The notes under the pieces were generated by a model. The model worked only from the letters and a program-made list of their open reading frames with translations. It searched no databases and was not told the DNA's origin. Source: Hymenobacter sp. CRA2 (GTDB lineage Bacteria; Bacteroidota; Bacteroidia; Cytophagales; Hymenobacteraceae). Taken from it: a DNA stretch of 64,000 nucleotides. A program made the position numbers and the translations under genes. The first letter of the stretch is position 1. Every line of letters starts with the position of its first letter. The DNA lies in the NCBI RefSeq assembly GCF_002007105.1, contig NZ_MVBC01000001.1:434001-498000 (forward strand), given 5' to 3'. This document shows positions 14,402 through 56,975 of this stretch, piece after piece.

Positions 14402-16051
<1,650 letters not shown>

Positions 16052-16092
16052 GCAGGCGCATTCCCCTTCTCTCTTCTTCCGACAGTCTATCA

Positions 16093-17424
16093 ATGGCTAT
16101 AATCTCTAAAGACGAAGCCCAGGCTATCCTGACCAAGGTACTGGGCTTCAGCACCGCCGATGAGTGCGAGGCGACCCTCACCGGCACCACCGGCGGCAAC
16201 ATCCGTACCGCCCGCAACACGGTGAGCACCGCTGGCGCCGTCGACAACGTGTCGCTGGCCGTGGAGGCCCGCTTCGGCAAACGCTCGGGCGTGGCTACCT
16301 GCAACCAGTTCGACGACGCGACGCTGCGCCGCTGCGTGCAGCGCGCCGAGGAAATTGCCCGCCTCGCCCCCGAAAGCCCCGAGTACGTGCCCATGCTGGG
16401 AGCCCAGCAGTACGTGAGCACGCCGGCCTTTGCCCAGAACACGGCCGGCATCAACCCCGACTTCCGCGCCCAGCAGGCCGGCAAGAGCATCAGCTACTGC
16501 GACCAGAAAAAGCTCAGCTCAGCCGCCTTCCTCGAGGACGAAGCCGGCTTCGTGGCCAAGCGCAACAAGAAAGGCCTGGAAGCCTACCAGCAGTTTACCA
16601 ACCTGGACTTCTCGGTGACGGTGCGCACCCCCGACGGCCTGGGCTCGGGCTACGCCGCGGCCGACTACACCGACATCAGCAAATTCGATGCGGGCCGCCT
16701 TACCCAAATTGCCGCCGGCAAAGCCGCGGCTTCGGTAACGGCCAAGGCCATCGAGCCGGGCAAGTACACCGTAATTCTGGAGCCAGCGGCGCTGGTCGCC
16801 AACACCGACGCCTCGCTGCTGGGCGCGCTGATGCAGGCCTTCGACGCCCGCTCGGCCGACGAAGGCCGCTCGTTCCTGAGTAAGAAAGGCGGCGGCAACA
16901 AGAAGGGCGAAAAGCTCTTCGATGAGCGCGTGACCATCTACTCCGACCCGGCCAGCCCCGACATTCCCGGCCTCGCGTTTGCCGGCGACGGTCGCCCGCG
17001 CCAGAAGGTGACGTGGATTGAGAAGGGGGTGGTGAAAAACATGTACTCCTCGCGCTTCTGGGCCCAGAAACAGGGTATTCCGGACATTGCCCCGCCCAGC
17101 GGCTTCATCATGATGGGCGGCACGGCTAGCACCGAAGACCTAATCAAGAGCACCCAGAAAGGCATTCTGGTGACGCGCCTGTGGTACATCCGCCCCGTGG
17201 ACCCGCAGACGCTGCTCTATACCGGGCTGACGCGCGACGGAACGTTCTACATCGAGAACGGCAAGATCAAGCACCCGGTGAAAAACTTTCGCTTCAACGA
17301 GTCGCCCATCATCATGCTCAACAACCTGGAAGCCATTGGGCGGCCGCAGCGCCTGGGTGGCAACTTCGTGCCCCCGCTCAAGATCCGCGACTTCACCTTC
17401 ACCAGTCTGTCCGACGCGGTGTAA
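16093..17424 (+). CDS. PmbA/TldE-family partner of TldD, copy 1
   Basis: A 443-residue protein with the TldE-type layout and no HExxxH: residues 40-75 (RTARNTVSTAGAVDNVSLAVEARFGKRSG) form the substrate-groove strand, and the C-terminal half has GFIMMGGTASTEDLIKSTQKGILVTRLWY and FNESPIIMLNNLEAIG, the conserved glycine-rich closing motifs. No signal peptide or Tat motif is visible, unlike the TldD partner. It may leave the cytoplasm only if carried folded with the TldD protein by the Tat pathway; that is inference. It is very similar to the copy at 19564. Confidence 0.9.
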   Translation: MAIISKDEAQAILTKVLGFSTADECEATLTGTTGGNIRTARNTVSTAGAVDNVSLAVEARFGKRSGVATCNQFDDATLRRCVQRAEEIARLAPESPEYVPMLGAQQYVSTPAFAQNTAGINPDFRAQQAGKSISYCDQKKLSSAAFLEDEAGFVAKRNKKGLEAYQQFTNLDFSVTVRTPDGLGSGYAAADYTDISKFDAGRLTQIAAGKAAASVTAKAIEPGKYTVILEPAALVANTDASLLGALMQAFDARSADEGRSFLSKKGGGNKKGEKLFDERVTIYSDPASPDIPGLAFAGDGRPRQKVTWIEKGVVKNMYSSRFWAQKQGIPDIAPPSGFIMMGGTASTEDLIKSTQKGILVTRLWYIRPVDPQTLLYTGLTRDGTFYIENGKIKHPVKNFRFNESPIIMLNNLEAIGRPQRLGGNFVPPLKIRDFTFTSLSDAV

Positions 17425-17453
17425 GTTTGCTTGCTCCTTGTTCCAAACCGAAG

Positions 17454-17485
17454 AGTCCCCGGGCCGCTGGTCCGGGGGCTTTTTA
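17454..17485 (+). terminator. Terminator after the first TldD/PmbA pair
   Basis: AGTCCCCGGGCC paired with GGTCCGGGGGCT across a short loop and followed by five Ts. It ends the first protease pair, so the second copy probably has its own promoter. Confidence 0.75.
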
Positions 17486-17532
17486 TTTGGCCGTAAGAGG
17501 TCAGCAGTGGTTTAGTTACGGAGCAAGACTAG

Positions 17533-17705
17533 AGCTAGCTCCCCTCCTCAGCTGAGAAGGGGCTGGGGGTGGTAAGGTTACTATCCGCCATCAGCCCGCG
17601 AGATGTCTCGGCTGCGCTCGACATGACGACGACGGGCTTTGTCGGACGTTCTGATGACTGGCCAACCACCCCCAGCCCCTACTCAGCTGAGGAGGGGAAC
17701 TGGCT
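17533..17705. repeat. 173-bp MITE-like element with 41-bp terminal inverted repeats
   Basis: The arms at 17533-17573 and 17665-17705 are reverse complements with 38 of 41 matches (core CCCCTCCTCAGCTGAGAAGG). The interior contains a second palindromic motif (GAGATGTCTCGGCTGCGCTC at about 17599). There is no coding capacity. It lies in the 480-nt gap between the two TldD/PmbA pairs; the remainder of that gap holds the promoter region of copy 2. Confidence 0.75.
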
Positions 17706-17904
17706 TTAGCCTTTGACTTTAGAGTATTCGGCAACTTTACTCACTGAATGTTCCGTTTGGCCCGGCCAGGCGGGACATTTCTTACCCAACTTATATAACT
17801 TAACGCCTATACTTTTCACCTCGCTGTGGGGGCGCTGTGCAGCCCTGGCCGCAGCGCCTGCGCCTTTCCAATACGACTTCTCTCAACCCTTCTCCCCTAA
17901 AACT

Positions 17905-19557
<1,653 letters not shown>

Positions 19558-19563
19558 TCCGCC

Positions 19564-20886
19564 ATGATGCTGTCCAAAGACGAAGCGCAGACCATTCTGA
19601 AGAAGGTCATGAGCTTCACCACGGCCGATGAGTGCGAGGCCAACCTCAACGGCACCACTCGCGGCAACGTGCGCTACGCCCGCAACACGGTGAGCACCGC
19701 CGGCAACACCGATAACGTGTCGCTGGCCGTGCAGTGCTGGTTTGGCAAACGCTCGGGCGTGGCTACGTGCAACCAGTTCGACGACGCGACGCTGCGCCGC
19801 TGCGTGCAGCGCGCCGAGGAAATTGCCCGCCTCGCCCCCGAAGACCCCGAGTACATGCCGCGCCTCGGGCCGCAGCAGTACCTCACGGCGCCGTCGTTTG
19901 CCCAGAGCACGGCCGGCATTACGCCCGACTTCCGCGCCAAGGCCGCCGGCGACAGTATTGCCCTGTGCCAGGAGAAGAAGCTCACGGCCGCCGGCTACCT
20001 GGAAGACGGCAGCAGCTTCGCCGCCATCCGCAACTCCAAGGGCTTGGAAGCCTACCAGCAGTTTACCAACCTGGACTTCTCGGTGACGGTGCGCACGCCC
20101 GACGGCACCGGTTCGGGCTACGCCGTAGCCGACTATACCGACATCGGCAAGTTCGACGCCCAGGCCCTGACGCAGCGCGCTGCCACCAAAGCGGCGGCTT
20201 CGGTAGCGGCCAAGGCCATCGAGCCGGGCAAGTACACCGTGATTCTGGAGCCCGCCGCGCTGGTGTCGGATGAAGGCCTGATCAACCGACTGGTGTGGGC
20301 CTTTGACGCGCGCGAAGCCGATGAAGGCCGCTCGTTCCTAAGCAAGAAAGGCGGCGGCACCCGCACGGGCGAGAAGATGTTCGACCCGCGCGTGAGCATT
20401 TACATCGACCCCACCAATCCGCAGGCCCCCGGCGGCACCTTCGACAACGAGGGCCTGCCGGTGAAAAAGCTGCCCATCATCGAGAAGGGCGTGGTCAAAA
20501 ACCTGTACTACTCGCGCTACTGGGCCCAGAAAAGCAAGGCGCAGCCCACGGGCTTCACCGGCAACTTCGTGATGGAAGGCGGTACGCAAAGCATTGAGGA
20601 GCTGATCAAGAGCACGCAGAAGGGCATTCTGGTGACGCGCCTGTGGTACATCCGCGACGTGGACCCGCAGTCCTTGCTAGTGACGGGCCTGACGCGCGAC
20701 GGGACGTTCTACATCGAAAACGGCAAGATCAAGCACCCGATCAAGAACATGCGCTTCAACGAGTCGCCGGTGATTATGCTCAACAACGTGGAGGCCGTGG
20801 GCCGCGCCCAGCGCCTGGGCGGCAACCTGGTGCCCCCGCTCAAGATTCGGGACTTCACCTTCACCAGCCTGTCCGACGCCATCTAA
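19564..20886 (+). CDS. PmbA/TldE-family partner of TldD, copy 2
   Basis: A 440-residue paralogue of the protein at 16093, starting 6 nt after the TldD stop (ATG 19564; ATG 19567 is equally possible). It shares the strand RYARNTVSTAGNTDNVSLAV and the glycine-rich end GNFVMEGGTQSIEELIKSTQ. Like copy 1 it has no HExxxH motif and no signal peptide. The most variable part between the two copies is around residues 285-345, where copy 2 replaces a proline/aspartate-rich loop. A terminator follows. Confidence 0.9.
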   Translation: MMLSKDEAQTILKKVMSFTTADECEANLNGTTRGNVRYARNTVSTAGNTDNVSLAVQCWFGKRSGVATCNQFDDATLRRCVQRAEEIARLAPEDPEYMPRLGPQQYLTAPSFAQSTAGITPDFRAKAAGDSIALCQEKKLTAAGYLEDGSSFAAIRNSKGLEAYQQFTNLDFSVTVRTPDGTGSGYAVADYTDIGKFDAQALTQRAATKAAASVAAKAIEPGKYTVILEPAALVSDEGLINRLVWAFDAREADEGRSFLSKKGGGTRTGEKMFDPRVSIYIDPTNPQAPGGTFDNEGLPVKKLPIIEKGVVKNLYYSRYWAQKSKAQPTGFTGNFVMEGGTQSIEELIKSTQKGILVTRLWYIRDVDPQSLLVTGLTRDGTFYIENGKIKHPIKNMRFNESPVIMLNNVEAVGRAQRLGGNLVPPLKIRDFTFTSLSDAI

Positions 20887-29175: not shown

Positions 29176-30981
29176 ATGCCCTCTCTCGCCTCATCCGACG
29201 ACTTCCTGTTTTATGCTCTGACGGGTTTGTGCCTGCTGCTAGCGGCCGGGCTCACCTGGCAAGCCTGGCGCGGCGCCACGGGGGGCCGCGCCGTGCTGCG
29301 CATGGTAGCAGGCCTGCTAGCCGCCGCGGCCCTATGGCTCACCGCCTATCCGCCCCAGCACCGCATAGCCGGCTCCAGCTCGGCTGCGGCCGTTCTGCTT
29401 ACCGAAGGCTACCGGCCTGATACGCTACGAGTTCTGCTCCGACGCCTTGGGCCGGTGCCCGTGCTGTACTACCGCCCGGCCCATGCCCTGCGCGGCGACA
29501 CCCTGCCGCTGGCCTCGCTGCGGGCGCTGGCCACCCACTATCCGGCTGTGCGCCAGCTGCACGTCATGGGTTTGGGCCTGCCCGTCGCCGATTTGGCGGC
29601 GTTGCCACCTCAAGTACAGCTGCAGCCCTACGTCGCTACACGCTCGGCCTTTATGGCCGCTACCTGGCAGCAGCAGCTTGCCTTGGGCCAAACACTACAA
29701 GTCGATGGCACGGTGGCGGCTAGTGGCTCCGGGGCCACGTGGGTACGTCTGGTGGCCGAAGGCGGCAACCGGGATTCGGTGCACCTGCCGCAGGGCTCCG
29801 GCCACTTCACGCTGCGCTACACGCCGCGCCGCGCCGGACAACTGCTGGCACAATTGGTGGCCCGGCGGAACGGGAATGTAGTAGCCACCGAGCCGGTGCC
29901 GACCCAGGTGCGCGCCGCCCGGCAACTGCGCGTACTCCTGCTGGCTGGCAGCCCTTCCTTTGAGCTGAACCTGCTGAAAAATCACCTCGCCGAACGTGGC
30001 CACCACGTAGCCCTGCGCCTGCAGGTAAGCCGCGGCCTGACGCAAACCGACGCGCAAAACCTGACCGGCACCGACCCGACGCGGCTTTCCCCCGCCTTGC
30101 TTCGCTCCTTCGACGTAGCCATTACCGACGCCGACGGCCTGAGCAGCTTGTCGGGCGAGGAAGCGCGGCAGCTAACGTCGGCCACCGCCGAAGGCTTGGG
30201 CGTGGTACTGACCGGCGCCGCGGAGCTGCCGCGCACCCTGCCCGGCCGCACCGACTTCGCCCTGCAGGCGCGCCCCGTCGCGCAGGCCGAACGCCCGCAG
30301 GCCCTCCACTGGACGGATGGCCAAGGCACTGCGCTCTACACCGCGGTGCTGCGCCCTTCGCCCCGGCAGCGCGTGCTGCTCACCGGGGCCACTGCCAGCA
30401 CTATAGTAGGAGCGGCGCGGCGCACAGGCTGGGGCAGCACCGTAGTTGCCACGCCCACCAACACTTTCCAGTGGTTGCTCAGCGGCGCGGTAGCGACTTA
30501 CGACACCTACTGGCGCCAGCTTCTGCTTGCGGCGGCCCGGCCACTGGAGCCCGCCGCCCAATGGCAGCGCCCCGCGTGGCCGCGTGCGCACGAGCCACTG
30601 GTGCTAACGTTAGCGGCTACTGCACCGCCAGCCCGCTCCGCGCGCCTCGAAACGTCGGCCGCAGCGGCTACCAGCTTAGCTTTTTACCAGCATCCGGCGC
30701 AGCCCGGCACCTGGCTGGCTGATGCCCAACCCACCCAGGCTGGCTGGCACACAGCCGTTGCTCCGGGGCAGGACACGGCGGCTTTTTACGTCTTCAAAGC
30801 GGCAGATTGGCGTGGCGTGCTGGCCGCGCAGCGCCTGGCCGCGGCTCGGCAGCACGTATCCAAGGCGTCGGCTGCGGTTTCGCCCGCGCGTACGCTTGAG
30901 GCACCGTGGCTGGCGGCTGGGTGGTATTTTGCGCTGTTTCTCGTGGCAGCCGGCTGGCTGTGGCTCGATGAAAAACGCTAA
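29176..30981 (+). CDS. Membrane protein with glutamine-amidotransferase-like domain, end of MoxR/BatA operon
   Basis: A 601-residue protein starting 2 nt after the previous stop. Two membrane helices at the N-terminus (FLFYALTGLCLLLAAGLTWQA and a second near residue 50), an Ig-like beta region, then a GATase1-like alpha/beta domain around residues 250-350: LRVLLLAGSPSFELNLLKNHL and FDVAITDADGLSSLSGEEAR. A final membrane helix (YFALFLVAAGWLWL) precedes the end. Catalytic Cys is absent, as in other BatA-locus GATase-like proteins, so the domain is probably a scaffold. It closes the cluster begun at 22490. Confidence 0.83.
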   Translation: MPSLASSDDFLFYALTGLCLLLAAGLTWQAWRGATGGRAVLRMVAGLLAAAALWLTAYPPQHRIAGSSSAAAVLLTEGYRPDTLRVLLRRLGPVPVLYYRPAHALRGDTLPLASLRALATHYPAVRQLHVMGLGLPVADLAALPPQVQLQPYVATRSAFMAATWQQQLALGQTLQVDGTVAASGSGATWVRLVAEGGNRDSVHLPQGSGHFTLRYTPRRAGQLLAQLVARRNGNVVATEPVPTQVRAARQLRVLLLAGSPSFELNLLKNHLAERGHHVALRLQVSRGLTQTDAQNLTGTDPTRLSPALLRSFDVAITDADGLSSLSGEEARQLTSATAEGLGVVLTGAAELPRTLPGRTDFALQARPVAQAERPQALHWTDGQGTALYTAVLRPSPRQRVLLTGATASTIVGAARRTGWGSTVVATPTNTFQWLLSGAVATYDTYWRQLLLAAARPLEPAAQWQRPAWPRAHEPLVLTLAATAPPARSARLETSAAAATSLAFYQHPAQPGTWLADAQPTQAGWHTAVAPGQDTAAFYVFKAADWRGVLAAQRLAAARQHVSKASAAVSPARTLEAPWLAAGWYFALFLVAAGWLWLDEKR

Positions 30982-30999: not shown

Positions 31000-31179
31000 T
31001 TAGTAGCGGATAGCCGGGTGGCCACAGAGCCGCGGGTCGTAGGCTTCGCCCACGACGTACTCGCCCAGTTGCAGAACCCGCTCGGTAATGGGGCCGCCAA
31101 GAACCGGAACGGGCGTCACACTTTGGTCGACGGCTTCGGACAACAAACCAGCGGCCGTCTTGGCATCGGGCGCTGGCAT
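31000..31179 (-). CDS. Small peptide gene 1, C-terminus GHPAIRY
   Basis: A 59-residue protein starting at ATG 31179 (MPAPDAKTAAGLLSEAV...). The last 24 residues, from LQLGEYVVGE to the final CGHPAIRY, align without gaps with the end of the peptide at 53966-54166: 13 of 24 identical and five more conservative. The N-terminal 35 residues do not align. No signal peptide is evident. A TACCTTTG -7 box at 31226-31233 places the transcript start about 40 nt upstream of this ATG, so the longer upstream extension to a TTG at 31275 is unlikely. Neighbour: its stop is 18 nt from the end of the MoxR/BatA cluster, convergent. No known family is recognised; see findings. Confidence 0.7.
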   Translation of the reverse strand: MPAPDAKTAAGLLSEAVDQSVTPVPVLGGPITERVLQLGEYVVGEAYDPRLCGHPAIRY

Positions 31180-31225: not shown

Positions 31226-31233
31226 CAAAGGTA
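31226..31233 (-). promoter_or_regulatory. -7 box of small peptide gene 1
   Basis: TACCTTTG on the minus strand, an exact TAnnTTTG. TTC sits 19 nt upstream in place of the -33 TTG. The predicted start of transcription is about 31219. Confidence 0.55.
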
Positions 31234-31352: not shown

Positions 31353-31586
31353 CTACTGAGCGTTGGTGGTCGAAGCCTCCGTGGTAGTGGTGCCAGCGGC
31401 AGCAGCCGTGGTGTCGGCCGGAGCAGCGGTAGCAGCGCCCGTCGAATCCATTGCGGCCGGAGCAGCAGCTTCGGTCGTCGTGGGTTCGGTCGTGGTAGCT
31501 TCCGTCGTCTCAGCGGCTTTGTCGTTGCTGCACGAAGCGAGGCTAACTACGGCGAACAGGGCAGCTACTTTCAGCAGATTTTTCAT
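31353..31586 (-). CDS. Small Thr/Ala-rich lipoprotein
   Basis: A 77-residue lipoprotein: signal MKNLLKVAALFAVVSLASC with Cys19 at the lipobox, then only Thr, Ala, Glu, Pro, Asp and Ser in low-complexity runs. It is probably a disordered surface or periplasmic lipoprotein. Its promoter region is shared with the divergent sigma factor gene at 31725. Function is unknown. Confidence 0.8.
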   Translation of the reverse strand: MKNLLKVAALFAVVSLASCSNDKAAETTEATTTEPTTTEAAAPAAMDSTGAATAAPADTTAAAAGTTTTEASTTNAQ

Positions 31587-31724: not shown

Positions 31725-32312
31725 ATGGGCAAGGGACAACCTTCCTACACCGACGAGGAGCTGCTGGCGGGTATCCGCCACGGCGACGACCGGGCATTGG
31801 CACACATGTACCGCCAGTATTTACCCACGGTCATCCATTTGGTCACGCAAAACAGCGGAACCGAGGACGAGGCCAAGGACATTTACCAGGAGGGCGTGAT
31901 GGTGTTTTACGAGAAAGTCCGCGAGGGCACGCTCGAGCTGAGCTGCCAGATCAAGACCTATCTGTACGCCGTGTGCCGCCGGTTGTGGCTGAAACGCTTG
32001 GCCGAAAAGGGCCGCTACGGCGGACGCCTGGACGACCACGAGCCCTACCTCGAAACCGGCGCCGAGGCCGACCTGGCCGACGCCGAGGAACGCGACCGGC
32101 AATTCGCTCTGATGAGCGAGGCGCTGGGCCGGCTCGGGGAACCGTGCCGGTCCTTGCTCGAGGGGTTTTACCTGCTCGACAAGTCTATGCAGCAGCTTAC
32201 GGCGGAGCACGGCTACACCAATGCCGACAACGCCAAGAATCAGAAATACAAATGCTTGGTGCGTTTGAAGAAGTTGTTTTTCACCCAATACAAGGAAGAA
32301 CCGCTGCCCTAA
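31725..32312 (+). CDS. RNA polymerase sigma factor, ECF (sigma-70) family
   Basis: A 195-residue sigma factor. Region 2 is RHGDDRALAHMYRQYLPTVIHLV...DEAKDIYQEGVMVFYEKV, and region 4 is LSCQ-free but recognisable: GRLGEPCRSLLEGFYLLDKSMQQLTAEHGYTNADNAKNQKYKCLVRLKKLF. Region 4 begins with an atypical Cys-rich turn. The gene is followed 51 nt downstream by a membrane-bound serine protease with an anti-sigma-like N-terminus, suggesting the two form a regulatory pair. Regulon unknown. Confidence 0.9.
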   Translation: MGKGQPSYTDEELLAGIRHGDDRALAHMYRQYLPTVIHLVTQNSGTEDEAKDIYQEGVMVFYEKVREGTLELSCQIKTYLYAVCRRLWLKRLAEKGRYGGRLDDHEPYLETGAEADLADAEERDRQFALMSEALGRLGEPCRSLLEGFYLLDKSMQQLTAEHGYTNADNAKNQKYKCLVRLKKLFFTQYKEEPLP

Positions 32313-52347: not shown

Positions 52348-53727
52348 TTAGTTGCTGCGCGTCAGTTCCTGCTGCACCAGTTCCTGCACTTCGGGCTTGT
52401 CGTAGTCGGTTTCAGCATCGATGTGGCGCATCAGGCGCTCCATGATGGCGTCCTGGCGCTGGCCGTTGGCCCAGGCCTCGGCGTACGGGCGGTGCGAGAA
52501 GGTGACCTGCGAGTAGAGCGACGCCCACTGATCGGGGTACTGAGCCGAGATTTTGCTCTCGATTTTCTTTTGCAGCAGAAAGCGCGGGTCGGCCACTTTG
52601 TCGCGCATTTCCACAAAGTTGTACACCGCGAGGTCGGCCACGGCGTCGGCGTTGGGCTTGCGCGCCTGCTGAAACTCGCGGAAGATGGTCTGCCAGTCCT
52701 CGCCGTGGCGCTGCAGCAGCTCGTCGAGCACGGTGCAGTCCTCAAAGCCCGCGTTCATGCCCTGCCCGTAGAAGGGCACGATGGCGTGGGCCGCGTCGCC
52801 GAGCAGCACCACGTCGTCATCGAAGGACCACGGGAAGCACTTGACCGTGACCAGCGAGGCCGTGGGGTTGTGGAAGAAGTCATCGGTCAGCTCCGGCATC
52901 AGCGGCACCGCGTCTGGGAATACCCGCTCGAAAAAGGCCGTTACGTCGGCCGGCGTTTGCAGCGCGGCGAAGGACTCCTCGCCCTCGAAGGGGAAGAACA
53001 GCGTGCAGGTAAACGAGCCGTCGAGGTTGGGCAGGGCAATCATCATGTAGCGCCCGCGCGGCCAGATGTGCAGCGCGTGCTTTTCCATGGCCCAGCCGCC
53101 TTCGGCCGTGGGCGCGATGGTCAACTCCTTGTAGCCGTATTCGAGGTAGGACTGCGCATAGTCAAAGCGGTCGGTGCGCTGCATGGCGCTGCGCACGGCC
53201 GAAAAGGCGCCGTCGGTGCCGAACAGGCGGCGGAAGGCCACGTGCTGCTCCTGCCCGCTGGCGCTGTCGCGCAGGTGCAGCTCGCGCTGGCGCAGGTTGA
53301 TGTCGAGGCACTGCTGACCGAAGTGCAGCTGCACGCCGGGCTGGGCTTCGGCCAGATCGAGCAGACGGCGGTTCAGCCCACCGCGCGACACGGAGTAAAT
53401 GGCCTGCCCGGGCTTGCCGTAGGGCTGCTGGCTGAGGTTGCCGTGCGCGTCGTGCATCACGCGGCCGTACATCGGAATGGCTACTTCGCGCACCGCTTCG
53501 GCCACGCCCACACCCTCCAGGGCCCGCCATCCCCGATCCGACAACGCGAGGTTGATGGAGCGGCCCGAGTCGCTGCCCGCGCGGCGCGGGTCGGGCCGCC
53601 GCTCGTACACCTCCACGGCGTAGCCGCGGCGGGCTAGGTACAAAGTGAGCAGGGAGCCAACCAAACCGGCTCCAGCAACCGTCAGGCGCTCAGGCGCTGC
53701 GCTGGAAGATGGGGTAATTGTGGACAC
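52348..53727 (-). CDS. kmo: Kynurenine 3-monooxygenase
   Basis: A 459-residue FAD-dependent hydroxylase. The Rossmann start GAGLVGSLLTLYLARRGYAVEVYERR binds FAD, the RSINLALSDRGWRAL block is characteristic of KMO, and LGDAAHAIVPFYGQGMNAGFEDC is the GD motif that contacts the flavin. It hydroxylates kynurenine to 3-hydroxykynurenine using NADPH and O2. Start is GTG 53727. Other pathway enzymes are at 58413, 61164 and 62753. A TACTTTCG -7-like box lies 34 nt upstream. Confidence 0.95.
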   Translation of the reverse strand: MSTITPSSSAAPERLTVAGAGLVGSLLTLYLARRGYAVEVYERRPDPRRAGSDSGRSINLALSDRGWRALEGVGVAEAVREVAIPMYGRVMHDAHGNLSQQPYGKPGQAIYSVSRGGLNRRLLDLAEAQPGVQLHFGQQCLDINLRQRELHLRDSASGQEQHVAFRRLFGTDGAFSAVRSAMQRTDRFDYAQSYLEYGYKELTIAPTAEGGWAMEKHALHIWPRGRYMMIALPNLDGSFTCTLFFPFEGEESFAALQTPADVTAFFERVFPDAVPLMPELTDDFFHNPTASLVTVKCFPWSFDDDVVLLGDAAHAIVPFYGQGMNAGFEDCTVLDELLQRHGEDWQTIFREFQQARKPNADAVADLAVYNFVEMRDKVADPRFLLQKKIESKISAQYPDQWASLYSQVTFSHRPYAEAWANGQRQDAIMERLMRHIDAETDYDKPEVQELVQQELTRSN

Positions 53728-53965: not shown

Positions 53966-54166
53966 ATGAGCACCCCAACTGCCTTATTGCTTACCGCCTC
54001 CTTAGGTGCAGAACCTGCACCGGCCGCCTACGCAGCAGAAACTGTTGCCAATGCCAGTGCCAACGATGAAGCCCTGGCCGCGGCAGCTCAACTACAAATC
54101 GGCGATTTTGTGTTGGGAGACTTGGATTGCCCCAGCCTCACGGGCCACCCAGACATTCGTTATTAG
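53966..54166 (+). CDS. Small peptide gene 2, C-terminus GHPDIRY
   Basis: A 66-residue protein (MSTPTALLLTASLGAEPAPA...). The last 24 residues, from LQIGDFVLGD to TGHPDIRY, align gap-free with the end of the peptide at 31000-31179: 13 identical and five conservative. The N-terminal 42 residues are Ala-rich and unrelated to that peptide. ATG 53966 is the first Met after the promoter-like AT-rich stretch at 53820-53890. It is flanked on both sides by AT-rich intergenic DNA (53820-53890, 54180-54290), unusual for this genome. No family is recognised. Confidence 0.65.
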   Translation: MSTPTALLLTASLGAEPAPAAYAAETVANASANDEALAAAAQLQIGDFVLGDLDCPSLTGHPDIRY

Positions 54167-54344: not shown

Positions 54345-56975
54345 ATGCAGCAATTTTCCCCTTGCCTTCTGGCACTGGGCGGTATACTGGCGACAGTACC
54401 CGCCCTGGCCCAGACGGAAACGGGCGTTGGCGGCATCGTGCGCAACGATGCCGGCCAACCAATTCCTGGAGCCACAGTCTTTTTGAAAGGCACTCTGATC
54501 GGCACCGGTACCAACCGCGAAGGCCAATTTTCCCTGCCTGCGGATTTTAGCAACGGCCCGGTGGTCATTTCGGTGTCCTTCGTAGGCTACGAAACGCGCG
54601 AACTGGAACTGAGCAAGCCCACGCCCGACGTGCTGGTGACCCTCAACGAGGCCGTGACCCTGAACGAAGTGGTAGTGGCCGCCTCGCGCGTGGAAGAATC
54701 CCTGCAGCAGGCCCCGGTCACCATCGATAAAATCGGGGCGGCACAAATTCAGCGCCTGCCTCCGCCCGACGCCCTGGCCAGCCTGAACCAGTTCAAGGGC
54801 ATCGACGTGAACACCTCCAGCATGGTGATGAGCAGCATCAGCACGCGCGGCTTCAACTCGCCCAAGTCGGAGCGCGTGATTCAGCTGGTGGACTACTTCG
54901 ATACCCAGTCGCCCTCGCTGAACGTCAACTCCGGCAACCTGACGGGCATTCCGGAGCTGGACATTGCCAGCATCGAAGTGATTCACGGGCCGGCCTCGGC
55001 CCTGTACGGCGCCAATGCCTTCAACGGTGTGGTGCTGCTGAACTCCAAGGACCCGTTCGTGACGGAGGGGCTGTCGGCGCGGGTGCGCGGCGGGCAGCGC
55101 GCCTATTTCGACGGGCAGCTGCGCTACGCCCACAAAATCGGCAACCGGCTCGCTTTCAAGCTGGTGGGTAGCTACCTGACGGCCGATGACTGGCTGGCTA
55201 AAAACTACGACGCCACCAGCCGCATCATCACCCCGAACAACAACGCCGCCGGCTCGCCCCAGGGCTACGACGCCGTGAACCGCTACGGCGACGTGGCCAA
55301 CACCTACTCGGCAACCCAGCCTTTCCCCACGGGCGTGAGCCCCGAGCTGGAGGGCAAGACGGTGTTCATGCCCGGCTTCACGGAGCAGACGCTGATTGAT
55401 GGCGACAACAAGGCCAAGGCGTTCAAGGTGGTGCCGACGGTGTCGTACCTGCTGACCAGCAAGCTGAAGGCCACCGTGGCCGCCAGCATCAACCGCGGCA
55501 CGGCCAGCTACCAGAGCTCCAGCCGCTACCGCCTGCGCGACTTCGGCACCAACCAGTACCGCGGCGAGCTGCGCGGGGAGCGGTGGTTTTTGCGCGGCTC
55601 CTCCACGCAGGACTTCGGCAACAACTCCTACGACCTGGGCTTCCTGGGCGCGTTCATCCAGAACTCGCCCGCAGCCGAAGGCAACAGCACGACCTACGCC
55701 CAGCAGTACTTCGGCACCTACAACGTGGCCTACAAGCAGGCCCGCGCGGCCGGTGCCACCGTCGACCAGGCGCTGGTGGCGGCCCAGGCCAAGGCCAACG
55801 AAGGCCAGCTCGATCCGGGCAGTGCACGCTTCGGGCAGCTGCGCTCGGTTATCATTAAGGACGCCCGCCCCGGCTTTGGCGCCCGGGTGCAGCCTAGCTC
55901 GCTGCTGAACGAAGGCAACGCCCAGTACGACTTCCGCTTCGGCGACAAGACCAACCTGATCCTGGGGGCCTCGTACCGCAAGTTCCGCCTGGGCTCTGAC
56001 GGGCAGTTCTTCTCCGATGACAATGAGCGCATCCAGAACCACGAGATGGGTGCCTATACCCAGTTCTCGCACCAGATGCTGAACGACCGGCTGAAGCTGG
56101 CTCTGGCCGCTCGCCTGGACCTGTTCAAGAACTTCGACCCGGCCTTCTCCCCCCGCGCCTCGGCCGTGTACACCGTGGGCGACGCCCGCCAGCACAGCTT
56201 CCGCGCCAGCTACGGCCGCGCCTTCCGCTCCCCCACTCAGCTCGACCAGTACATCCGTCTGGATGTGGGCCCGGTGTACCTGCTGGGCAACGTGGGCGGC
56301 GGCTTTCAGGGCCTGAGCCTGCCCACGGCCACTACGCCGTCGGCCCCGGTTGCCATTGCCGCGCTGCAGCTGGAGCGCCTGAGCACGTACGAAGTAGGCT
56401 ACCGCGGCACTTTCGGCGGCAAGCTGTACGTGGACGCGACTTACTTCCGCAGCCAGTACAACGACTTTATCGGTGCCCGTCGTTTCCTGGGCAACCCGGA
56501 CGGCTCCCGCACGCTGCCGCTGCGCGTGCTGCAGGTATGGACCAACGCCGACCAGGAAGTACACACCCAAGGTGCCTCGGTGGGCCTGAGCTACAATGTG
56601 GCCAAGCCGCTGACCCTCACGGCCAACTACTCGCTGAACCTGCTGGATAACAGCAAGCTGCCCGGTGACTTCCAAACGTTCTTCAACACGCCGAAGAACA
56701 AGTACAACGTAGGCGCCAACGGCCAGGCCAACAAGCTGAGCTACTCGGTGAATTACCGCTGGGCTCAGGGCCACCTGTACGAAACGCCGTTTGCGGTGGG
56801 GCAGCTCAGCGACTACAGCTCGCTGGATGCCTTCGTGGGCTACACCGTGCCCAAGCTGGCTACCACGCTGCAGGCCGGCGCCTCCAACATCCTCGATGCC
56901 AACAACGTGCAGGTATTCGGCGGGCCACGCATCGGCCGGTTGGCTTATCTAGGCCTGCTCGTCGACGTGAAATAA
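54345..56975 (+). CDS. TonB-dependent receptor with CarboxypepD_reg-like N-terminus
   Basis: An 876-residue outer-membrane receptor. Signal peptide (CLLALGGILATVPALAQ), then a CarboxypepD_reg-like domain (GVGGIVRNDAGQPIPGATVFLKGTLIGTGTNREGQFSL), the plug domain (SRVEESLQQAPVTIDKIGAAQIQ, ISTRGFNSPKSERVIQLVDYF, GPASALYGANAFNGVVLLNSKDPF) and a barrel ending LAYLGLLVDVK. Ligand is unknown; no SusD-like partner follows. It sits between kmo and the rest of the kynurenine cluster, so a role in uptake of tryptophan breakdown products is possible but not shown. Confidence 0.93.
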   Translation: MQQFSPCLLALGGILATVPALAQTETGVGGIVRNDAGQPIPGATVFLKGTLIGTGTNREGQFSLPADFSNGPVVISVSFVGYETRELELSKPTPDVLVTLNEAVTLNEVVVAASRVEESLQQAPVTIDKIGAAQIQRLPPPDALASLNQFKGIDVNTSSMVMSSISTRGFNSPKSERVIQLVDYFDTQSPSLNVNSGNLTGIPELDIASIEVIHGPASALYGANAFNGVVLLNSKDPFVTEGLSARVRGGQRAYFDGQLRYAHKIGNRLAFKLVGSYLTADDWLAKNYDATSRIITPNNNAAGSPQGYDAVNRYGDVANTYSATQPFPTGVSPELEGKTVFMPGFTEQTLIDGDNKAKAFKVVPTVSYLLTSKLKATVAASINRGTASYQSSSRYRLRDFGTNQYRGELRGERWFLRGSSTQDFGNNSYDLGFLGAFIQNSPAAEGNSTTYAQQYFGTYNVAYKQARAAGATVDQALVAAQAKANEGQLDPGSARFGQLRSVIIKDARPGFGARVQPSSLLNEGNAQYDFRFGDKTNLILGASYRKFRLGSDGQFFSDDNERIQNHEMGAYTQFSHQMLNDRLKLALAARLDLFKNFDPAFSPRASAVYTVGDARQHSFRASYGRAFRSPTQLDQYIRLDVGPVYLLGNVGGGFQGLSLPTATTPSAPVAIAALQLERLSTYEVGYRGTFGGKLYVDATYFRSQYNDFIGARRFLGNPDGSRTLPLRVLQVWTNADQEVHTQGASVGLSYNVAKPLTLTANYSLNLLDNSKLPGDFQTFFNTPKNKYNVGANGQANKLSYSVNYRWAQGHLYETPFAVGQLSDYSSLDAFVGYTVPKLATTLQAGASNILDANNVQVFGGPRIGRLAYLGLLVDVK

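Follow-up and report, generated by a model that had tools for sequence, protein, structure and literature searches.

RRNPPA signalling, which includes Rap-Phr, PlcR-PapR and NprR-NprX, is the nearest described kind of system to the genes considered here. As laid out in the sections of PMC9765709 used here, RRNPPA receptors carry 5-9 TPR or TPR-like repeats and an N-terminal DNA-binding HTH or three-helix bundle, the exported propeptide is encoded next to the receptor gene with its C-terminus forming the mature peptide, and the peptide is taken up via an oligopeptide permease (PMC9765709). Intracellular peptide-receptor systems of this kind are described as Firmicutes systems in the parts of the two sources drawn on (PMC9765709, PMC10075063). 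Set against this definition (PMC9765709), a gene cassette of Hymenobacteraceae, in which genes for a helical-repeat protein and a peptide importer adjoin that of a small peptide, appears to resemble RRNPPA systems in layout. It differs from them in that its ~495-aa protein has no sequence match to solved structures and its Foldseek matches are not significant, that no ATPase gene was seen in the cassettes read, and that the two genes A and B described below are not adjacent to the 495-aa gene, the genome's own copy of which is on contig C10. A small protein of the cassette that may be exported, P1, would be like an RRNPPA propeptide in its layout, as far as the genes alone reveal it. Mycofactocin- and PQQ-type RiPP precursors, which are short proteins with a fixed C-terminal end (MftA ends in Tyr), offer a further comparison; however, no maturation genes were seen beside A or B, and there was no NCBIfam match.

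The window analysed here is the whole 64,000-nt stretch of Hymenobacter sp. CRA2 (contig NZ_MVBC01000001.1, positions 434,001 to 498,000). An initial annotation had singled out two short ORFs within it, and both were found as described, position and translation alike: gene A (P0001, 59 aa) at 31000..31179 on the minus strand, and gene B (P0002, 66 aa) at 53966..54166 on the plus strand. Each closes with a 24-residue C-terminal segment, ending GHPAIRY in A (31003..31074, minus) and GHPDIRY in B (54092..54163, plus). The claim that these tails align without gaps at 13 of 24 identical residues was upheld on recomputation (LQLGEYVVGEAYDPRLCGHPAIRY vs LQIGDFVLGDLDCPSLTGHPDIRY, BLOSUM62 sum 72): among 595,685 other ORF-tail pairs in the window (1,092 ORFs, both strands), only 17 reached 13 or more identities, and these comprised 16 pairs from duplicated genes at ~14.6-20.9 kb and one overlapping ORF pair at 47.8 kb. 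The likeness of the A and B tails thus exceeds that of unrelated ORF pairs in the window. The duplicated stretch itself (14611-20886) consists of long ORFs in tandem, visible as many near-identical ORF tails. Where A starts is uncertain: 9 nt upstream of its ATG there is a GTG in the same frame, and in three relatives from the genus the reading frame contains no ATG ahead of the tail. An AlphaFold2 model of B (25-row alignment, mean pLDDT 62.5) contained strands only at residues 43-45 and 48-50, both inside the tail. No Rfam family matched the window at the gathering threshold, and a plasmid search with P0001 returned no match.

Both loci, with the same tails, are present in other genomes of the genus, and A and B belong to a single small-protein family of Hymenobacteraceae, most members of which are ~60-105 aa long. 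Searches with P0001 and P0002 found matches in 11 of 98 and 6 of 58 genomes, respectively, own genome included in each case. A 15-row tail profile matched 108 of 204 Hymenobacteraceae genomes at E ≤ 0.01, and a broader profile, with Rufibacter and Pontibacter-type members added, matched 162 of the 204 at E ≤ 0.1; within the family the broader profile matched none of eight genomes of genus g4 and none of two of genus g2 (g3 and g4 are, we infer, Pontibacter and Adhaeribacter), although one g4 cassette protein (L301) nevertheless ends in IRY. Phylum-wide, the 15-row profile matched 4 of 395 genomes above the set limits, and the sole match outside Hymenobacteraceae (G243, E 0.0046) was internal rather than C-terminal. 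Two order-wide samples gave matches outside Hymenobacteraceae in 3 of 52 genomes (E 0.002-0.04, two with internal stop codons) and 4 of 35 genomes (E 0.014-0.041), which is noise level; no convincing member was found outside Hymenobacteraceae in the phylum- and order-wide profile samples. Scanning GTDB r220 with a DNA pattern of the end of the tail returned 70 stretches, 64 of them with members and all of these from records named Hymenobacter, Rufibacter or Sabulibacter, while the remaining six did not match the tail profile. The family thus spans Hymenobacter, Rufibacter and Pontibacter with their relatives and, within the searches made, is lineage-restricted.

The initial annotation had known of no named family with this ending, and library searches agreed: neither P0001 nor P0002 matched Pfam, NCBIfam, PADLOC or PHROGs at a curated cut-off or a clear E-value, the only weak matches being those of P0002 to ATPD_C_fung (E 0.039) and SduA (E 0.012), and four further members searched against named-family libraries gave no match either. 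In the literature library searched, no paper contains either of the two commonest tail ends, GHPDIRY and GHPGIRY; the papers that further queries did retrieve concerned other genera.

Conservation in the family is concentrated at the C-terminus. Among 128 distinct members, Tyr occupied the last position and I, L, V or M position -3 in all 128 (Ile in 123), with Pro at -5 in 120, Gly at -7 in 112, Leu at -9 in 110 and Gly at -16 in 100; Cys at -12 was found in 31 of 62 B-locus members vs 1 of 31 at the A locus. Mean within-group identity was 0.53-0.87 in the tail vs 0.21-0.39 in the preceding 45 residues for four of five groups, the Pontibacter group showing no such excess (0.47 vs 0.48). Tail pN/pS was 0.08-0.26 (pS 0.53-0.76), for pairs chosen at ≥60% tail identity, a choice that lowers pN and flatters the ratio. 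The tails are under purifying selection; what the family conserves is its last ~24 residues, in which the final Tyr is invariant. The proposal of a new small-protein family with a conserved end and a variable N-terminus is accordingly supported by its homologues and by the identity of the tail relative to the residues upstream, and the search proposed with it, for homologues ending GHP.IRY under purifying selection, came out positive in the 64 GTDB stretches and in the tail pN/pS. That two non-coding ORFs are alike by chance might be entertained since the two are short and intergenic, but the homologues and the substitution pattern refute it, and we give it practically no weight.

On the basis of the genes found within 3 kb, 63 of the 128 members lie at the kmo locus (that of B), 31 at the sigma/vWA locus (that of A), 21 at an SBP/Dpp locus and 13 elsewhere; in 15 genomes of the profile-matched set, two copies point apart with 23-65 kb between them, as in the window. 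The conserved neighbour of A is a convergent 601-aa gene (29176..30981, plus), which ends 18 bp from A, tail to tail (7-123 bp in the relatives shown). Upstream of A lie a 77-aa lipoprotein-like ORF (31353..31586, minus), kept in several genomes without A, and a divergent sigma-factor-like gene (31725..32312, plus). B is flanked by a divergent kmo-like gene (52348..53727, minus) and, 178 bp past its stop codon in the window and in several relatives, by a TonB-receptor-like gene (54345..56975, plus). These names (sigma factor, kmo, TonB receptor, lipoprotein) are putative assignments from sequence. As a check on absence, the 601-aa neighbour of A served as query against 38 genomes, 36 of them unmatched by the 15-row tail profile, and matched in 31; no tail-like ORF was evident by eye in the 1.5 kb downstream of it at 30 loci, and the lipoprotein ORF was still present at 10 or more of these. 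A subgroup of kmo-locus members (L163, L170, L201 and others) shares a conserved basic N-terminus peculiar to it, MTHFRFRYKRVGYMRWR, together with a conserved promoter region, GACCTTTGACGAATTAGAAC, and in some genomes stands in tandem with a second member.

This arrangement bears on whether each ORF could be a leader or arrest peptide regulating a downstream gene. Conservation running C-terminally up to the stop, and the same-strand gene 178 bp downstream of B in the window, would suit such a role, but the genes downstream of B differ among genomes; at A it is unlikely, the following gene being convergent and only a short distance away. We regard this explanation as very improbable. The tail might instead be the core, and the N-terminal part the leader, of a peptide that is exported or modified (a RiPP-like product or a pheromone), and a short protein with a fixed C-terminus whose relatives adjoin a peptide importer would be in keeping with that. 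The same suggestion in the initial annotation fared poorly for A and B: inspected by eye, neither shows a clear export signal (a weak hydrophobic stretch is present in P0002), no modifying enzyme was seen by eye among the flanking ORFs read at either locus, and the poorly conserved, variable part is the N-terminus. We therefore consider it improbable for these proteins.

Relatives of the tail genes occur inside a conserved peptide-import cluster, which hints at a peptide-sensing system. Its order is a ~495-aa helical-repeat protein, P1, a peptide-binding protein (SBP), DppB, DppC and a tail protein (P2), with one or more ~495-aa paralogues divergent from P1. In Rufibacter and Pontibacter-type genomes the tail gene is co-directional with SBP-DppB-DppC and comes after DppC, closing the cassette (counting matches of 12 bits or more in this search). 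A transport role is predicted for the importer from an SBP_bac_5 match (E 2.3e-58) and two permease-like genes adjoining P1. P1 represents a second small-protein family (loci L276-L280, L282, L283, L296, L298-L303 and L305; three copies in tandem at L303), 50-80 aa long with a hydrophobic start, a Ser/Thr-rich middle and a Gly-rich end with Trp, whose best library matches, New_glue and WGxxGxxG, were below cut-off. A P1-like ORF preceded the SBP at all 11 loci where an SBP was found and at seven of eight in a second set. An exported-peptide layout would fit P1, beside the cassette homologues, judging by its sequence.

In the genome of Hymenobacter sp. CRA2 the cassette is located away from the window, on contig C10, with the 495-aa protein at C10:41039-42535, P1 at C10:40492-40680 (L296), then SBP, DppB and DppC, and a P2-like ORF at C10:36267-36536 that ends MRIGDIIVGLIPSLEGPA. 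Ten further loci with the 495-aa gene were read: seven of them (L296, L298, L301-L305) contain a P2-like ORF, and none was found at L297, L299 or L300. Six of the seven cassette P2 proteins lack the IRY end, which is present in L301. Scored against shuffles (163-284 of 300 shuffles scored), a Pontibacter P2 profile placed all seven above every scored shuffle (11.5 vs 4.9 for the own genome), and a GHPxIRY-type profile, A4, did so for four of the seven, the own genome among them (7.2 vs 5.0).

The 495-aa protein was found in 196 of 204 Hymenobacteraceae genomes, in 1-4 copies each among the matches listed. A Persicobacter record contains a remote relative (22% identity, E 8e-6), which indicates that the protein is not limited to Hymenobacteraceae. 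A plasmid copy with 28.9% identity, annotated as hypothetical, lies in Hymenobacter sp. BRD128 (NZ_CP053909.1, 62156-63688; L350, 8001-9533) and adjoins a tyrosine recombinase. Against named-family libraries the protein matched no family above cut-off; of two 495-aa proteins, one gave a weak TPR_16 match short of the cut-off (E 0.0092) and the other gave none. Against PDB sequences there was no match at E ≤ 1, so that similarity to RRNPPA receptors did not emerge from sequence. A structural model from a five-row alignment was all-helical with a poor mean pLDDT of 50.8, and predicted N-terminal helices where Pfam found no domain. With this model, Foldseek returned 717 matches, none at E ≤ 0.001; the first row was an IFT-A protein, and the best 50 of the 717 included 15 Rap or NprR chains (E 0.01-0.16) among other TPR and PPR proteins. 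Model and Foldseek together fit a TPR-like receptor and show no more than that.

Dependence of the tails on the 495-aa protein was considered and not supported by co-occurrence. At E ≤ 0.1, the tail model matched seven of the eight genomes without the 495-aa protein (five of them below 1e-6) vs 155 of the 196 with it, and thus no dependence was seen; this speaks against the 495-aa protein being the direct partner of the dispersed copies.

Promoter motifs separated the cassette from loci A and B. The initial annotation had noted a promoter box at A, and a TACCTTTG box is indeed present at 31226..31233 on the minus strand, where 46 nt separate it from the ATG of A; by the TAnnTTTG consensus it is a putative promoter. 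It is not a family trait: among 118 of the 122 distinct members, those whose sequence extends 600 nt upstream of the stop, 23 had a TAnnTTTG box 150-450 nt before the stop, compared with five in antisense and 13.2 ± 3.4 in shuffles (the highest of 200 being 23), which makes it a weak candidate for a general family promoter. A different motif, GTYA-N15-[TAC]TTCCT, was looked for before the 125 of 128 members with enough upstream DNA: at loci A and B it preceded 0 of 93, elsewhere 28 of 32, with shuffles expecting ~0.09 in either set. With near-duplicates left out, the A and B groups had their own, other promoter forms without the cassette motif, which is also found ahead of dispersed tail copies in Pontibacter and Rufibacter.

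A longer form of this motif had 18 sites in nine genomes vs one for a reversed control: 12 before tail genes (four of these not previously read), one before P1-SBP, three before a ~100-aa WYL-like protein, one before a lipoprotein and one unclear. The WYL-like protein is conserved behind the motif in three Pontibacter-type genomes (L270, L271, L272), and the one protein tested matched WYL at E 0.00029, just below the Pfam cut-off. A Hymenobacter form of the motif had 50 sites vs nine control sites in 11 Hymenobacter genomes, many of them in the cassette, and was not specific in two AT-rich g4 genomes (35 vs 15 control). Two of its seven sites in the own genome lie in the cassette, and exact matches there also precede a ~340-aa lipoprotein-like ORF (C22:225370, L319) and a ~400-aa ORF (C44:74141, L332).

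Our tentatively favoured reading is that the tail serves as a ligand segment at the C-terminus, and that the family originated together with the peptide-import/sensing cassette. A variable, probably disordered N-terminal part would carry the tail, and a candidate peptide-binding partner would read it as a ligand via its free C-terminus, the members acting as small ligands or modulators of the circuit. In Hymenobacter the GHPxIRY form belongs to A and B, two scattered genes with promoters of their own, and the cassette copies read are without the IRY end. Against a link to the cassette stand the tail matches in seven of eight genomes without the 495-aa protein, the 0 of 93 motif count at A and B, the A4 result in four of seven, and the lack of a tail excess in Pontibacter. 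Since the tails persist without the 495-aa protein, it is nearly as likely that A and B are stand-alone small adaptors that use the tail to dock on some cytoplasmic protein with no link to peptide import; the cassette member would then be a relative with another job. Their fixed chromosomal places and own promoters without the cassette motif argue for such adaptors, but A and B are homologous to the cassette's last gene and the cassette motif precedes the dispersed Pontibacter and Rufibacter copies. An extended form of the cassette-derived ligand reading, which we think rather unlikely, is an RRNPP-like system of the lineage's own, in which P1 would be an exported pheromone precursor, SBP/Dpp would reimport it, the 495-aa receptor would act on GTYA-N15-TTCCT promoters, and the Tyr-tailed proteins (P2, A and B) would be internal ligands or antagonists.

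The tails define a small-protein family beyond the named libraries searched, tied to a conserved peptide-import cassette, and in the free, Tyr-ended 24-residue tail they offer a functional segment that can be tested. If the cassette proves to be an RRNPPA counterpart in Bacteroidota, it would make peptide signalling there directly testable.
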